DNA of 64,000 bases, taken from the NCBI RefSeq assembly GCF_014397005.1, contig NZ_JACGWS010000004.1, positions 310,001-374,000 on the forward strand, given 5' to 3'. Positions 3,903-64,000 of the stretch are shown piece by piece (position 1 is the stretch's first letter; the number at the start of each line of letters is the position of its first letter). The position numbers and the translations under genes were made by a program. Source of the stretch: Kordia aestuariivivens. Its GTDB lineage: Bacteria > Bacteroidota > Bacteroidia > Flavobacteriales > Flavobacteriaceae. The notes below the pieces were generated by a model, which was not told the origin of the DNA, made no database searches, and was given only the letters and a program-made list of their open reading frames with translations.

Positions 3903-4466
3903 ATGAGTTTGATAGCTGAAAATTATTTAGAGAGTACACGCAAGCAGTTTACGTATTATAAAAGTTTGGGCGATAAAACGTTTGCGCAGTTATCTGATGA
4001 AGAAATTCATTGGCAACAGAACGATGATAGCAATAGTGTTGCAATTATTGTAAAACATATTGTTGGAAATATGCTGAGTCGTTGGACAAATTTCTTAACA
4101 GAAGATGGTGAAAAGGAATGGCGTCATCGTGATACCGAATTTGAAGATACGTACACCTCCAAAGCAGAAATGATTACCGCTTGGGAAAAAGGTTGGCGCT
4201 GTTTGTTTGCTGCGATTGATCCACTTGAAGCGAAAGACGTTTCCCGAATTATTTACATTCGAAATCAAGGGCATACGGTCATGGAAGCAATGACACGACA
4301 ATTGAGTCATTATGCATACCATATTGGTCAGTTAGTCTATGTTGGCAAGTTGATTCGTGGAAATGAATGGACTTCGTTATCCATCCCGAAAGGAAAATCT
4401 TCTACGTATAATACAGATAAGTTCAGCAAAGAGAAAGGCAAACGACATTTTACGGATGATTTGTAG
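3903..4466 (+). CDS. DinB-like / DUF1572 family protein
   Basis: A four-helix-bundle protein of 187 residues resembling the DUF1572 branch of the DinB/YfiT superfamily, usually metal-binding thiol-dependent enzymes of unknown substrate. Support comes from the order of conserved pieces: QLSDEEIHWQ near residue 31, VKHIVGNMLSRW (49-60) with the first histidine, and RQLSHYAYHIGQLVYVGK (about 131-148) with two more histidines. Three such histidines are the usual metal ligands. No signal peptide. The last bases run into another TTAGACTT-type repeat. Confidence 0.75.
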   Translation: MSLIAENYLESTRKQFTYYKSLGDKTFAQLSDEEIHWQQNDDSNSVAIIVKHIVGNMLSRWTNFLTEDGEKEWRHRDTEFEDTYTSKAEMITAWEKGWRCLFAAIDPLEAKDVSRIIYIRNQGHTVMEAMTRQLSHYAYHIGQLVYVGKLIRGNEWTSLSIPKGKSSTYNTDKFSKEKGKRHFTDDL

Positions 4467-19112: not shown

Positions 19113-19319
19113 ATGAGAAAAAAGAATCTTACATCGTTAGTGCTTAATAAAAAGTCAATTTCTAATATTAGTATCACTGGAGGAACATTTCGTACCAATG
19201 AATGTTACAGTGTTCAAATCTGTCACGTAGAACCAGATACAGAACATACTCTTGCACCTATTCCTGTACAGAATACTAATTATTCTGTTTGCGTTTGTCA
19301 TACAGATATTCTTTGCTAA
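19113..19319 (+). CDS. GG-leader precursor peptide 1 (class I lanthipeptide-like)
   Basis: 68 residues. The N-terminus MRKKNLTSLVLNKKSISN and the double glycine (ITGG, about 23-24) form the leader shared by at least eight peptides in the window, known in Flavobacteriia as lanthipeptide-type natural-product precursors. The core after GG has five cysteines and several Ser/Thr (NECYSVQICH, VCVCHTDILC), suited to thioether or disulfide crosslinks. It is the first of six in a row and has its own terminator with a TTCG loop. No modifying enzyme is nearby; secretion is presumed to depend on a GG peptidase-exporter encoded elsewhere. Confidence 0.7.
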   Translation: MRKKNLTSLVLNKKSISNISITGGTFRTNECYSVQICHVEPDTEHTLAPIPVQNTNYSVCVCHTDILC

Positions 19320-19474: not shown

Positions 19475-19618
19475 ATGAAAAAAGCGAATTTTAAATCGTT
19501 AGAATTAAACAAAAGAGCCATTTCAAATCTAAAATTTGAAGAACTTAAAGGTGGTAAAAAAATCTTACCGACCTTAATAGTTCAATCGTGTATAGAAGCT
19601 TGTGACACTTATTTTTAA
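19475..19618 (+). CDS. GG-leader precursor peptide 2
   Basis: A 47-residue gene that is easily missed because of its size. Leader MKKANFKSLELNKRAISN, then LKFEELKGG, and a short core of 21 residues (KKILPTLIVQSCIEACDTYF) with two cysteines spaced C-x3-C. Same leader family as its neighbours. The start ATG follows an A/T-rich stretch typical of these genes. Followed by a strong 12-bp terminator. The GGTnTTnCC palindrome seen before several siblings is not clear here. Confidence 0.65.
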   Translation: MKKANFKSLELNKRAISNLKFEELKGGKKILPTLIVQSCIEACDTYF

Positions 19619-19670: not shown

Positions 19671-19704
19671 TTGTGTTTCATAGATTGCTATTTTCATGTT
19701 AATT

Positions 19705-19718
19705 AAGGTTTTACCGTA
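19705..19718 (+). promoter_or_regulatory. Operator-like palindrome of GG peptide 3
   Basis: AAGGT-TTT-ACCGTA, the least symmetric of six related sites. It ends 53 bases before the start codon; a TACTTTTTTG box and ATCAAAACTTTATAT follow it. Confidence 0.55.
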
Positions 19719-19771
19719 GCTAGTTATTGATTTGTTTTCATACTTTTTTGATCTAATCAAAACTTTATATC

Positions 19772-19930
19772 ATGAAAAAAAAGAACTTAACATCATTAGT
19801 ATTGAACAGAAAGTTGATTTCAAACCTTAAATCTCCAATTGAAGTAGTTGGAGGAGGAAGAACAGTACATAACTGTTCAGATCTCTTAACTTGTCCTTTA
19901 GGAGGTTGTGTTGATTCATATAACTGCTAA
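19772..19930 (+). CDS. GG-leader precursor peptide 3
   Basis: 52 residues: leader MKKKNLTSLVLNRKLISN, then LKSPIEVVGGG and a core of about 24 residues with four cysteines (HNCSDLLTCPLGGCVDSYNC) and Ser/Thr residues. The gene has its own operator-like palindrome, -7 box and terminator, so it is a complete single-gene unit. Its leader is very close to peptides 1 and 4 and to the four at 61-63 kb, so all are paralogues. Product and activity unknown. Confidence 0.7.
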   Translation: MKKKNLTSLVLNRKLISNLKSPIEVVGGGRTVHNCSDLLTCPLGGCVDSYNC

Positions 19931-19950
19931 AAGTTTACACTACTTAAATC

Positions 19951-19978
19951 AAAAAGCGAACTGAAGTTTGCTTTTTTT
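19951..19978 (+). terminator. Terminator of GG peptide 3
   Basis: AAAAAGCGAAC (19951-19961), TGAA loop, GTTTGCTTTTT and further T. Confidence 0.8.
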
Positions 19979-19987
19979 GTATTAATA

Positions 19988-20001
19988 AAGGTTATACCGT
20001 A
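19988..20001 (+). promoter_or_regulatory. Operator-like palindrome of GG peptide 4
   Basis: AAGGT-TAT-ACCGTA, ending 52 bases before the start codon. The bases from here to the ATG are largely the same as before peptide 3 (TGATTTGTT, TTTTGATCTAATC, AAAACTTTATAT). Confidence 0.6.
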
Positions 20002-20053
20002 ACAGTTTACTGATTTGTTATTGTACATTTTGATCTAATCAAAACTTTATATT

Positions 20054-20185
20054 ATGAAAAAAAAGAATCTTAAATCATTAAAACTGAACAAAAAATCTAT
20101 TTCTATTTTAAAACCTGAAACGATAAAAGGAGGGCTAGTACCAGGACGCGCTTCAGACAGTCCTACATATTGCCAAACTTGTTAA
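20054..20185 (+). CDS. GG-leader precursor peptide 4
   Basis: 43 residues, one of the smallest in the set. Leader MKKKNLKSLKLNKKSISI, LKPETIKGG, and a 16-residue core (LVPGRASDSPTYCQTC) with two cysteines at the end and Ser/Thr residues. The upstream region is a near copy of that of peptide 3, so the two units arose by duplication of promoter plus leader with a diverging core. Own terminator. The minus-strand peptide at 61983 has an equally short core. Confidence 0.65.
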   Translation: MKKKNLKSLKLNKKSISILKPETIKGGLVPGRASDSPTYCQTC

Positions 20186-20195
20186 TTTAATTTCT

Positions 20196-20220
20196 ATAAC
20201 GCTCTTCGGAGCGTTATTTT
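20196..20220 (+). terminator. Terminator of GG peptide 4
   Basis: ATAACGCTC-TTCG-GAGCGTTAT perfect 9-bp stem with UUCG loop, then TTTT. Confidence 0.8.
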
Positions 20221-20240
20221 ATGTTTATCCAAATGTTAAT

Positions 20241-20255
20241 TACGGTCTTACCGTA
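20241..20255 (+). promoter_or_regulatory. Operator-like palindrome of GG peptide 5
   Basis: Perfect palindrome TACGGT-CTT-ACCGTA, ending 56 bases before the start at 20312. The best of the six sites, and placed before a peptide with the other leader type. Confidence 0.65.
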
Positions 20256-20311
20256 CATAATTAATGATTATTTATTTTACTTTTTATAATTATGAACCAA
20301 AACCCAGCATC

Positions 20312-20491
20312 ATGTTAAAAAGTATTTTAAATCTCGAAAATTTTCAACAACTAAGTAAAACACAACAAGCTAAAATTAATGGCGGCGGATTGTCACAATG
20401 TTGTAACCCAACATTCCGTTGTTGCAATTCTAATCCAGCTTATAATGGTAACAATTGTCAGTATCTTAATGGCACAAGATATTGTGTGTAA
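20312..20491 (+). CDS. GG-leader precursor peptide 5 (second leader family)
   Basis: 59 residues when started at ATG 20312 (an earlier ATG at 20264 would add 16 residues lacking leader features). Leader MLKSILNLENFQQLSKTQQA then KINGGG: this is the LNL..VQ.L.K.EQ..INGG type, different from the MKKKNL type. The core is cysteine-rich, with two CC pairs (LSQCCNPTF, FRCCNSNP) and two more cysteines, resembling small disulfide-rich bacteriocin-like peptides. It shares the palindromic operator with the other family. Confidence 0.68.
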   Translation: MLKSILNLENFQQLSKTQQAKINGGGLSQCCNPTFRCCNSNPAYNGNNCQYLNGTRYCV

Positions 20492-20586: not shown

Positions 20587-20772
20587 ATGAAAAAAAGTAT
20601 TTTAAATGTAAAAGGAGTTCAAGAACTCGACAAAAATGAGCAATCAAAAATCAACGGAGGAGTTTTCGGTATGCAATGTTATACGCATGCCGACTGCCAA
20701 ATTCTAAGTTCTCTACCAGGCATGGAGTATGAACGTTTCTTCTGTTATTGGGGATATTGCCAGATAGCTTAA
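20587..20772 (+). CDS. GG-leader precursor peptide 6 (second leader family)
   Basis: 61 residues. Leader MKKSILNVKGVQELDKNEQS then KINGG, the same type as peptide 5, and a core with cysteines in MQCYTHADCQ and FFCYWGYCQ, four in all and aromatic-rich. The palindromic operator found before peptides 3-5 is not evident in its 95-base upstream region, so it may be read through from peptide 5 or controlled differently. Followed by a UUCG terminator. Function unknown. Confidence 0.68.
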   Translation: MKKSILNVKGVQELDKNEQSKINGGVFGMQCYTHADCQILSSLPGMEYERFFCYWGYCQIA

Positions 20773-28001: not shown

Positions 28002-28200
28002 AAAAAAAAAGCCTACATTGATTAGAGTTTTGTATAAACTCCAAAAAACAAGTTTAGAGCTAACAGATTGATCAAGGATCTGCCCAAATAATGAACAAGT
28101 TCACTATTGACAGCCTGCTTTTACAATCATGACTCACCCTTTTTAAAAATATTAACGTTGAGTTTATCAAAAATAAAAACCAATGTAGGCAGTAACCTAT
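28002..28200 (-). ncRNA. ssrS: 6S-like RNA (6S-Flavo type)
   Basis: About 190-200 bases of gene-free sequence folding into one long hairpin. Closing stem GCCTACATTG (28181-28190, minus strand) pairs with CAATGTAGGC (28011-28020), followed by nine T: a Rho-independent end. An inner stem ATAAACTC/GAGTTTAT (28034-28041 with 28160-28167) continues it, with an unpaired middle. Length, rod-like fold and position directly after zapA fit 6S RNA, which binds RNA polymerase in stationary phase. Assignment to the flavobacterial 6S family is from memory of its genomic setting. Confidence 0.75.
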
Positions 28201-44334: not shown

Positions 44335-44418
44335 TAGTGTAATAAATTGTTTTTTACACAGGTGGCATCCGAAAAACCTATATCAAAAGAGTAGGAAACC
44401 TATCAAAACCAAAAAATT

Positions 44419-61157: not shown

Positions 61158-61391
61158 ATGAAAAAGAAGGATCTTAAGTCTTTAAAACTGAACAAAAAAT
61201 CTATCGTCAACTTCAATGTGACAACTAATTTAAACGGACTACATGGTGGTAGCGGAATTAGATGTATGCTACCACTTCCTGGTTCAATTATAGATTGTGA
61301 AACAGAATACCCTAATTGCCCAGGCCCAAGCGACCCAACAGATGAAACAATGACTTGTCCAGATTGGTCATGTGGATGCCCTCAAAATTAA
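61158..61391 (+). CDS. GG-leader precursor peptide 8
   Basis: 77 residues, the longest of the set. Leader MKKKDLKSLKLNKKSIVN, then NLNGLHGG, and a core of about 45 residues with six cysteines (RCMLPLPG, DCETEYPNCPG, MTCPDWSCGCPQN) and many Pro. The MKKK..L.SL.LNKKSI leader is that of peptides 1-4. It is the only plus-strand peptide of the right-hand group and has no TACGGT operator in its upstream 120 bases. Terminator is nearly identical to that of peptide 6. Confidence 0.7.
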   Translation: MKKKDLKSLKLNKKSIVNFNVTTNLNGLHGGSGIRCMLPLPGSIIDCETEYPNCPGPSDPTDETMTCPDWSCGCPQN

Positions 61392-62164: not shown

Positions 62165-62179
62165 TACGGGAACACCGTA
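62165..62179 (-). promoter_or_regulatory. Operator-like palindrome of GG peptide 9
   Basis: Minus strand TACGGTGTTCCCGTA, ending 53 bases before the start codon at 62111. Confidence 0.6.
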
Positions 62180-62239: not shown

Positions 62240-62392
62240 TTAATAACAGTTTTGAAGTCCACATTGAGAATAAAGAGCTGTAGTCGTACAAGTTGGAGTA
62301 CAAGTCTGATGATATCCTCCTTTAAGAACATTTTCAAGTTTAGAAATTGATTTTTTGTTTAATGCCAAAGAGGCAAGATTCTTTTTTTTCAT
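62240..62392 (-). CDS. GG-leader precursor peptide 10
   Basis: 50 residues, minus strand. Leader MKKKNLASLALNKKSISK, LENVLKGG, and a core rich in Cys and Thr (YHQTCTPTCTTTALYSQCGL then QNCY) with four cysteines and four Thr in a row of short motifs; this is the most lanthipeptide-like core of the set. Complete single-gene unit with palindrome 62445 and terminator 62211. Confidence 0.68.
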   Translation of the reverse strand: MKKKNLASLALNKKSISKLENVLKGGYHQTCTPTCTTTALYSQCGLQNCY

Positions 62393-62444: not shown

Positions 62445-62459
62445 TACGGGAACACCGTA
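62445..62459 (-). promoter_or_regulatory. Operator-like palindrome of GG peptide 10
   Basis: Minus strand TACGGTGTTCCCGTA, identical to those at 62165 and 62760, 52 bases before the start codon at 62392. Confidence 0.65.
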
Positions 62460-62480: not shown

Positions 62481-62705
62481 TTAGTGACACCTCACAAAAG
62501 AAGGACAGCCGAAAACAGTAGGGCAAGCGTCACCAGTGAGACACCTAAATACATCTTGAGTGTTACATTCTGGTCCTTGAGTGAAACATCCCACCGAACA
62601 GAAAGCTGAATTGTCGTCGTCGTCTCCTCCATTAATTGAACTATTGTCAAAATTTGAAATGGATTTTTTGTTAAGCGTTAAAGATGTAAGTTTTCTTTTT
62701 TTCAT
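62481..62705 (-). CDS. GG-leader precursor peptide 11
   Basis: 74 residues. Leader MKKRKLTSLTLNKKSISN, FDNSSINGG, then a poly-aspartate DDDDNS and a core with seven cysteines (FCSVGCFTQGPECNTQ, FRCLTGDACPTVFGCPSF, VRCH). Same family as peptides 1-4 and 8-10. Its own palindrome lies at 62760-62774; only a weak hairpin follows the stop. Confidence 0.72.
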   Translation of the reverse strand: MKKRKLTSLTLNKKSISNFDNSSINGGDDDDNSAFCSVGCFTQGPECNTQDVFRCLTGDACPTVFGCPSFVRCH

Positions 62706-62759: not shown

Positions 62760-62774
62760 TACGGGAACACCGTA
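62760..62774 (-). promoter_or_regulatory. Operator-like palindrome of GG peptide 11
   Basis: Minus strand TACGGTGTTCCCGTA, 54 bases before the start codon at 62705; a TATACTTT box lies between them. Confidence 0.65.
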
Positions 62775-62921: not shown

Positions 62922-64000
62922 TTAATCAAATTCTATTAAATAATAAAGTGAGTCACTAGCAGGAATATCATTCCATTCACCTGCCACTCCTAGTCCTCCA
63001 ACGGGTTGTGGCCATACATTTAATCCGATACCTAAAGCATCTTGATTTCCGGCGAAATTGTCTGGTTCTACTCCCCAATTATTATACAATCCGCCAACAG
63101 GAGTTCCACTAGCATCACCTTGCCAGAACTGTGTCGTATTTGCGTCATTGTTTCCATTCCATACCCAAACACCTTCAGAAGCAATATCATTTCCACCTAA
63201 AAATACATAGGATGCAGCACCACCACTGTTAGATACCGTATTGCTTAATACTATACCTGCATTGTTCATCAGCTCATTAAAAATAGCTGCATTTTCTGCT
63301 GCATCATTAATTTCGGCTAAGTATCCGCCTCTTTCTGCAGCACAAGCGGCTGCAGCTGCCCAATTTTTGTTTTCTCTTACGAGTTCATATATTTTTCCGT
63401 TGTACGTAAACGTATAAATGTTTGAAGGATCCGCACACGTACTTTGTGTTACCGTGACCGTAATTGTATAATTTACACTACTGCTATCTTCTGCCGTAAC
63501 TGTATATACAACTGGATTTGTAAAATCTTGAGCTACTCCCGAATTTGGAGAAATTGTTGCTAGATTTGAAATGACAATGGTAGGGCTTAATGAAGTAGCA
63601 TCAGTTCCAAAAGGTAAGGTAATCATCACCGTTTTTGCAGTTTCATTTATTGTTCCGTTTACAGAATTGATACTGAAACTAGTTATTTGCTTTTCATTAC
63701 TAAGATTAGCAGCAGTTACAGTAACCGTAACTGTATAATTGACACTACTACCATCTTCTGCCGTAACTGTATAGATAACTGGATTTGTAAAGTCTTGAGC
63801 TACTCCCGAATTTGGAGAAATCGTTGCTAGATTTGAAATGACAATGGTAGGACTCAATGAAGTAGCATCAGTTCCAAAAGGTAAGGTAATCATCACCGTT
63901 TTTGCAGTTTCATTTATCGTTGCATTTACAGAATTGATACTGAAACTAGTTATTTCCTTTTCGGCACTCAGTGCTATTCCTGTCGTCACATTAACTGTAT
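62922..64000 (-). CDS. Surface protein with DUF5018-like repeats and C-type lectin domain, 5' end beyond window
   Basis: The minus-strand frame is open to the window edge; a GTG at 63989 is internal, because the coding pattern continues before it. At least two copies of an 89-residue DUF5018-like repeat (motif ITSFSINSVN, then LPFGTDATSLSPTI, VAQDFTNPV, YTVTAED) are followed by a C-type lectin-like domain of about 160 residues, with NWAAAAACAAERGGYLAEIN near its start and LYNNWGVEPDN, the WGxEPD-type ligand loop, and GEWNDIPASD near the end. An adhesin is likely. No type IX C-terminal signal is seen. Confidence 0.8.
   Translation of the reverse strand, partial: TVNVTTGIALSAEKEITSFSINSVNATINETAKTVMITLPFGTDATSLSPTIVISNLATISPNSGVAQDFTNPVIYTVTAEDGSSVNYTVTVTVTAANLSNEKQITSFSINSVNGTINETAKTVMITLPFGTDATSLSPTIVISNLATISPNSGVAQDFTNPVVYTVTAEDSSSVNYTITVTVTQSTCADPSNIYTFTYNGKIYELVRENKNWAAAAACAAERGGYLAEINDAAENAAIFNELMNNAGIVLSNTVSNSGGAASYVFLGGNDIASEGVWVWNGNNDANTTQFWQGDASGTPVGGLYNNWGVEPDNFAGNQDALGIGLNVWPQPVGGLGVAGEWNDIPASDSLYYLIEFD

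Follow-up and report, generated by a model that had tools for sequence, protein, structure and literature searches.

A palindrome ahead of scattered GG-leader peptide genes as the predicted operator of one dispersed regulon in Kordia

In a stretch of 64,000 nucleotides (the window, C34:310001-374000) of the genome of the marine bacterium Kordia aestuariivivens (5.46 Mb, 46 contigs), six GG-leader peptide genes are each preceded by a 15-base palindrome. This bears on how GG-leader peptide precursors whose genes lie scattered over a genome are switched on. We propose that this palindrome is the predicted operator of one dispersed regulon, which would be read by an RcsB-like regulator and would act by class II activation. 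From the sequence evidence set out below, we give this whole explanation a probability of roughly 0.8. The sites in the window and the genes behind them are as follows.

19704..19718, plus strand: putative operator palindrome TAAGGTTTTACCGTA, one mismatch, 53 nt to the ATG, TAnnTT at +22
19741..19746, plus strand: -7-like box TACTTT, 22 nt past the palindrome
19772..19930, plus strand: GG-leader peptide gene, 52 aa
19987..20001, plus strand: degenerate putative operator AAAGGTTATACCGTA, three mismatches, TAnnTT at +22, profile match 25.3 bits
20024..20029, plus strand: -7-like box TACATT
20054..20185, plus strand: GG-leader peptide gene, 43 aa
20241..20255, plus strand: putative operator palindrome TACGGTCTTACCGTA, exact
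20278..20283, plus strand: -7-like box TACTTT
20312..20491, plus strand: GG-leader peptide gene of the second leader type (MLKSILNLEN..INGG), 59 aa
61983..62111, minus strand: GG-leader peptide gene, 42 aa
62137..62142, minus strand: -7-like box TAACTT
62165..62179, minus strand: putative operator palindrome TACGGTGTTCCCGTA, exact
62240..62392, minus strand: GG-leader peptide gene, 50 aa
62417..62422, minus strand: -7-like box TACTTT
62445..62459, minus strand: putative operator palindrome TACGGTGTTCCCGTA, exact
62481..62705, minus strand: GG-leader peptide gene, 74 aa
62732..62737, minus strand: -7-like box TACTTT
62760..62774, minus strand: putative operator palindrome TACGGTGTTCCCGTA, exact

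The initial annotation had claimed that all six sites fit one pattern, TACGGTnTTnCCGTA. This is exact for four of them (20241 on the plus strand; 62165, 62445 and 62760 on the minus strand), while the site at 19704, given there as 19705, has one mismatch. The site given as 19988 departs from the pattern at three positions and lies at 19987-20001, but its position, its -7 box and its match to the promoter profile described below (E 1e-4) speak for it. The other observations on these sites were borne out: the three minus-strand sites share one sequence, the palindromes end 53, 52, 56, 53, 52 and 54 nt before the ATG, within the proposed 52-56 bases in each case, and two leader types are served, with five genes of the form MKK..LxSLxLN..GG and one, at 20312, of the form MLKSILNLENFQQLSKTQQAKINGG. 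In addition, a -7-like TAnnTT box starts exactly 22 nt after the palindrome at all six sites. When up to two mismatches to TACGGTNTTNCCGTA were allowed, the window held seven matches, which include 20241 on both strands and one extra place, 26100, compared to a mean of 0.92 and a maximum of 5 in shuffled windows; seven or more matches were reached in none of the 100 shuffles. No palindrome within two mismatches was found at four GG-leader genes of the window (19113-19319, 19475-19618, 20587-20772 and 61158-61391).

The peptides themselves were poorly recognised by a family model. With the class I lanthipeptide leader model NF038153 (curated cut-off 22 bits), none of ten window peptides scored above the cut-off; three reached 12.9-17.4 bits and the other seven had no match at E<=0.1. 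Only two of the six peptides with a site were matched by this model, both below the cut-off. GG-leader peptides, whose own sequence is poorly conserved, might thus be found by their promoter. The window also contains a 6S-Flavo RNA (28036-28163, minus strand, 93.8 bits with a gathering score of 85), a match to the DUF805b cis-regulatory RNA (44359-44397, plus strand, 37.3 bits) and, adjoining the second peptide group, DUF5018 repeats with a C-type lectin domain (62922-63998, minus strand).

A scan of the whole genome with up to one mismatch had been suggested by the initial annotation, which counted as adverse a motif found equally often ahead of unrelated genes or inside genes, or one that is not conserved in relatives. 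Neither pattern was seen. At this tolerance TACGGTNNNNCCGTA occurred 84+81 times, compared to 17+27 times for the reversed control. The same search with TACGGTNTTNCCGTA gave 77 place-strand pairs, of which 36 precede a GG-leader ORF by a script rule; the remainder were rated as another protein with a signal-like start (4), weak (3) or none (34), and one of the weak pairs, C14:55684, is a GG-leader gene by eye. Counted as unique positions over both strands, there were 74, and a second rule assigned 46 to GG-leader genes, five to possible secreted proteins and 23 to none. Reading the 28 positions outside the GG-leader class moved two of them (C44:199704 and C9:112863) to GG-leader genes, and 14 of the 74 were read as lying inside genes or having no assignable target. 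Both leader types are present among the genome-wide targets.

The 36 promoters were chosen by palindrome and GG-leader alone, and spacing was no selection criterion. Nonetheless, TA stands at +22 in all 36, and the next two T of the box are found in 34 and 36 of them. The palindrome has the core TA[C/t/a]GG-N5-CCGTA, and GTTAA is common directly upstream of it; outside palindrome, GTTAA and box, the promoter columns are weakly conserved. From these 36 promoters of K. aestuariivivens we built a gap-free profile of 54 columns, which at E<0.01 matched 53 places in the genome, including the 36 training sites by construction (a circular result) and 17 others. By reading, these 17 comprise 11 intact GG-leader genes, two GG-like frames without an ATG, three secreted proteins and one opposite-strand match, which sits on a site serving a GG-leader gene in the other direction. 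The proposal of one regulator, left unnamed in the initial annotation, for a dispersed peptide regulon thus gains from the 53 profile matches, from the 22-nt spacing in 36 of 36 promoters and from the conservation throughout the genus described below.

We had expected most GG-leader genes to carry the site, which proved wrong. At E<=10 the leader family model matched 147 places spread over many contigs; many of these matches are weak, and 33 exceed the curated cut-off. Among the best 102 of the 147, only 10 have a promoter matched by the profile (E<0.01) no more than 80 bp away. The predicted regulon covers only part of the GG-leader genes, and secreted proteins and non-coding stretches belong to it as well.

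Over 60 genomes, the profile had matches in all 11 Kordia genomes and in three of the 49 others, with one match each. K. aestuariivivens had 48 matches at E<=0.001, and each of the other ten Kordia had 7-25. Among the best-scoring loci of relatives, 27 of which were read, all 24 Kordia loci had a GG-leader-like ORF 52-60 nt downstream, while the three loci from other genera had no such ORF. At one locus of a Kordia relative (L355), two palindromes stand ahead of secreted proteins of about 500 aa, which are of the same type as those at C1:199701, C1:201443 and C4:169955 of K. aestuariivivens.

The constant spacing allows the site to be placed on the promoter. In Flavobacterium psychrophilum the -7 box was mapped to -12 to -5 (PMC9723704), and on this basis the palindrome would span about -49 to -35, with its centre at about -42. 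The initial annotation had put the site where the -33 region should be, which agrees with this position and with the -7 box 22 nt on. A site centred near -41.5 or -42 is the class II activator arrangement. We suggest that a dimer of a NarL/RcsB-type regulator binds the palindrome, that the promoter-proximal half would cover the place of the -33 element, and that the bound regulator would recruit sigma-A RNA polymerase to the TAnnTT box. That the site replaces the -33 box, that the phase from operator to box is constant (36 of 36 promoters, with the start site deduced from the -7 box) and that a strong half-site stands there argues for activation.

A palindrome present in many copies, in several cases just past the terminator of a gene, could also be a transcription terminator or a mobile repeat. 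However, no T-run directly follows it, its conserved middle is asymmetric, it stands ahead of genes at an exact spacing to the -7 box, and the flanking columns are weakly conserved. This reading is contradicted by the spacing, and we rejected it as highly improbable.

A search of 84,980 species genomes, based on DNA letters only, for a mismatch-free palindrome with the box 22 nt on gave at least 112 stretches. Among the matches listed, 14 of 113 sites fall within ORFs of at least 100 aa and look like chance, and some loci are Kordia peptide genes. The ORFs found up to 250 bp from a site were all clustered and the neighbour families ranked, with the reservation that loci of related genera are not independent counts. 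Among the matches listed, the commonest family was one response regulator (28 of 112 loci), followed by a LytTR regulator (14 of 112) and a small membrane-like protein (10 loci), which adjoins the same response regulator. Of the 28 neighbouring regulators, again among the matches listed, 26 align with the Kordia regulator at E<1e-5, with identities of 26-57%, and when the whole available stretch was counted, 31 of the 112 loci carry the regulator at >90 bits.

Three arrangements were seen. In the first (8 loci among the matches listed, seven of them from Flavobacterium and from Flavobacteriaceae or Bacteroidetes MAGs), the palindrome lies between divergent genes for a NarL-type and a LytTR regulator. 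In the second (5 loci among the matches listed; three Aquimarina and two more with the same protein type), it lies ahead of a LytTR gene, which is followed by a TPR kinase gene in those read; the NarL-type regulator is encoded 3.9 kb on in two of them, and the other three sequences end before that point. The third arrangement, found in Psychroserpens, Winogradskyella, Lacinutrix, Gelidibacter, Formosa and others, has the palindrome about 65-150 nt 3' of the regulator gene; frequently another copy, not always a perfect one, lies at a distance of 22 bp.

Other neighbours were also noted. At L258, L269 and L277 the palindrome lies between a CRP-like gene and a gene for a PAS histidine kinase. By reading, it lies beside a TsaE-like gene at L197, L217, L232, L247, L252 and L348, with a similar small secreted peptide following it at L252 and L348, and ahead of TonB-dependent-receptor-like genes at L194, L227 and L239. 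At three loci from Epilithonimonas and Chryseobacterium (L179, L212 and L219), which we take to be Weeksellaceae, ORFs of the response-regulator cluster stand beside the palindrome; only that of L219 matches the Kordia regulator at E<1e-5.

The same neighbourhoods bear on who reads the site. The LytTR regulator that the palindrome precedes in the Flavobacterium- and Aquimarina-type loci, or a Kordia paralogue of it, might be the reader, since this family is found within 250 bp at the 14 loci mentioned, downstream of the site in the 13 that were read, and TACGGTT presumably resembles a LytTR half-site. LytTR sites, however, are usually direct repeats, and the palindrome is inverted. Moreover, the NarL-type regulator is encoded on the other side of the site at eight LytTR loci and 3.9 kb on at two more. 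True LytTR orthologues score 212-251 bits in three genera, whereas Kordia has no orthologue: matches of at most 81.5 bits were found in four of the 11 genomes, and none at E<=1e-20 in K. aestuariivivens. With no Kordia orthologue and a NarL-type regulator at the same loci, we set the LytTR protein aside as an improbable reader.

A second option is a repressor of the XRE/S24, CRP/FNR or TetR type, for which the palindrome would be an operator covering the -33 region. Dyads with a 5-base spacer are known for SOS repressors of Bacteroidetes, including Flavobacteriaceae, namely GGA-N5-TCC and CTAA-N5-TTAG (PMC8565304), and a CRP-like gene does stand beside the site at three loci, with a kinase gene on its other side. 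Compared to these SOS dyads, the half-site here is another one, the targets are peptides, secreted proteins and RNA candidates, and the position is invariant and activator-like. The invariant 22-nt spacing and the site in the -33 place fit an activator better than a repressor, and by reading no repressor family was recognised in the 14 largest neighbour clusters among the matches listed. Repression instead of activation is still conceivable; that one of these protein types is the reader appears unlikely.

The response regulator is accordingly our preferred candidate reader, and its sequence assigns it to the NarL/RcsB-type fold class. A profile of 28 regulator sequences gave full-length matches to RcsB (best, 3.9e-14), VraR and NarL, and a C-terminal match to EsrB (E 4e-4). 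The residues D10, D11, D63 and K120 are invariant across 28 sequences. In the three regulators scanned, the receiver domain PF00072 was found and Pfam GerE gave no match. A structure was also predicted, from an alignment of 20 rows, for the L262 regulator, which is 56% identical to that of Kordia. The model had a mean pLDDT of 90.1, and its best Foldseek match was RcsB (1.2e-11), with TM values of 0.57-0.60 for the first chains and 0.70-0.76 for other RcsB chains; structures of RcsB bound to rprA DNA were among the matches. As judged by the profile and structure matches, the regulator probably carries a LuxR-type C-terminal HTH.

In K. aestuariivivens the regulator is encoded at C42:304852-305514 (genome G000), directly 3' of a gene for a TPR/HisKA_3 sensor kinase, which would phosphorylate it. 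A kinase with TPR and HisKA_3 also adjoins the regulator at L221, L208 (where the end is cut) and the K. algicida locus L334, and HATPase_c was found in both complete ones. Each of the 11 Kordia genomes has a single strong regulator match (254-261 bits, next best <=86). The mean pairwise identity over these genomes is 97.9% for the regulator and 99.7% for its last 72 residues, compared to 90.1% for the neighbouring RecQ and 75.6% for the C-terminal part of the kinase. A near-invariant regulator with a divergent kinase is what we would expect if the regulator serves many sites and the sensor is under diversification. No intergenic palindrome (<=1 mismatch) was found in the 10-kb kinase-regulator locus of K. 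aestuariivivens, where the sole palindrome at this tolerance sits inside the regulator gene; the K. algicida locus (L334 1366) has one intergenic palindrome upstream, with one mismatch, which may be chance. The link to the regulator therefore rests mainly on other genera and on co-occurrence.

To assess co-occurrence we used the perfect 17-mer TTACGGN5CCGTAA. In 40 genomes it was present in 17 of 21 with the regulator (>150 bits) and in 3 of 19 without; outside Kordia the figures were 6 of 10 and 3 of 19 (p = 0.03). In a family-wide set of 199 genomes, with close to one for each genus, the 17-mer was found in 59 of the 125 that have the regulator (E<=1e-30) and in 7 of the 74 that lack it (p = 1e-8, a value that, like the other p values here, ignores kinship in a set in which many regulator-less genomes are small and related genomes inflate the counts). 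With a strict match (E below 1e-89) and the two Kordia removed, these numbers were 37 of 71 and 7 of 74 (p = 2e-8). The 73 genomes with a strict match had 109 sites, 17 of them in Kordia, compared to 20 for the reversed control, and 34 of the 73 had no perfect 17-mer, while the 74 genomes without the regulator had 8 sites compared to 19. In 52 genomes with a weaker regulator match, 20 of which had the site, there was no excess (25 sites, 34 controls); the difference in 17-mer presence between strict and weaker matches was not significant (p = 0.15).

In several other Flavobacteriaceae, the operator beside the regulator gene would drive a small non-coding RNA. There, behind the palindrome that comes after the regulator gene, about 90-110 nt are conserved (TCAACA..AATTAATTAATCCCTC..TTGTTGA..TTAATAGC) and end in a hairpin and a T-run; one rule yielded 18 copies at 17 loci. 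RNAalifold gave 16 pairs, five of which, all in the terminator stem, are changed on both sides. A covariance model of this stretch matched six of 40 genomes at E<1e-8, these six copies being part of its training set, so that it added no new members. In Kordia this model gave nothing convincing (best E 0.096, in genome G001, and 0.06 among selected loci). Rfam 15 returned only tRNA at gathering level for L176, L241, L308 and L236, and a search of L003, L046, L350, L262 and L253 at E<=0.5 gave three sub-gathering matches, each of them in L262 and away from the RNA. Rfp18 is a Flavobacterium sRNA described in PMC9723704. Two tandem copies of the regulator-linked candidate lie at L273 (3273-3663), and at L260 a copy (4301) lies beyond the first palindrome at 3952, which may be two copies.

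Kordia has a putative RNA of its own. A conserved stretch behind a perfect TACGGNNNNNCCGTA is present in all 11 Kordia genomes and absent from the other 29 genomes searched. It is 92-97% identical to the copy of K. aestuariivivens and has a hairpin with AGGGG and a terminator. Its distance to the palindrome is constant across the 11 genomes, 9 of which have the wider 17-mer; no TAnnTT box was recognised at +22. Both candidates, the regulator-linked and the Kordia-specific one, would be transcribed from the operator-promoter. In K. aestuariivivens we read the sites C34:124883 and C1:157051 as putative RNA promoters; at the former (L046 1484), a second palindrome stands ahead of what may be another non-coding RNA, which has TTTAGGGGAATC in common with the Kordia-wide candidate.

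Two-component regulons that include a small RNA are known. RcsB, of the NarL/FixJ family, is an activator of promoters, among them the one for the small RNA RprA. It is the best full-length profile and structure match of the regulator described here, which is likewise tied to a small RNA candidate and has a predicted class II-like site position; the operator is different, however, the predicted partner is a TPR/HisKA_3 kinase, and the Kordia regulon consists mostly of scattered GG-leader peptide genes. The FixJ/NarL-class system GacS/GacA acts on the small RNAs RsmY and RsmZ via a palindrome and controls secreted products. Class, palindrome, predicted small RNAs and secreted products are shared, but in Kordia the peptide genes carry the operator themselves. 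In bacteriocin regulons of Gram-positive bacteria, a LytTR regulator of the ComE/BlpR type controls several GG-leader genes through direct repeats. One regulator for several GG-leader peptide genes is the common feature, whereas here we find an inverted repeat, a NarL-type regulator and, in Bacteroidota, genes on many contigs; a LytTR match at orthologue level was found in none of the 11 Kordia genomes.

The richness of Kordia in biosynthetic clusters (PMC10734526) and a lantibiotic cluster in K. algicida (PMC3091789) have been described, and regulation is untreated in the parts of these papers that we consulted. In the open-licence literature, as far as its texts were accessible, we found no description of the operator, the targets of the regulator, either RNA or the recruitment of GG-leader genes. 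As far as we found, the predicted operator, its tie to the regulator, the two RNA candidates and the recruited GG-leader genes would thus be new. The result supplies a defined operator motif, candidates for its regulator and sensor, and two putative RNAs. If our explanation is true, the regulon arose by the repeated use of one operator-promoter layout in front of dozens of individual genes: in Kordia, the operator would have been taken up by dozens of scattered GG-leader genes, and also by some secreted proteins, two small lipoproteins and the Kordia-specific non-coding RNA.

The lipoproteins raise the possibility of a closed circuit, which we put forward as a tentative and rather doubtful joint reading. 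A kinase-linked lipoprotein would be, or yield, the signal for the fast-diverging TPR kinase, and its RcsB-like partner would activate relatives of the lipoprotein, the non-coding RNA and the scattered GG-leader peptides; ancestrally the adjacent small RNA would have been driven, and Kordia would have acquired operator-promoter cassettes. That the lipoprotein is the signal is a guess. When small ORFs were filtered for a hydrophobic start, one for a lipoprotein or secreted peptide did turn up upstream of the kinase gene in K. aestuariivivens (59 aa), K. algicida (56 aa) and five other loci (48-79 aa). Two lipoproteins of K. aestuariivivens (55 and 56 aa), at C12:265132 and C45:230338, weakly resemble the kinase-linked one (E 1e-6 and 1e-3, respectively, with six sequences compared at a generous E). 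Both have the palindrome about 170 nt upstream, and at both TATCTTTG stands one base nearer than usual.
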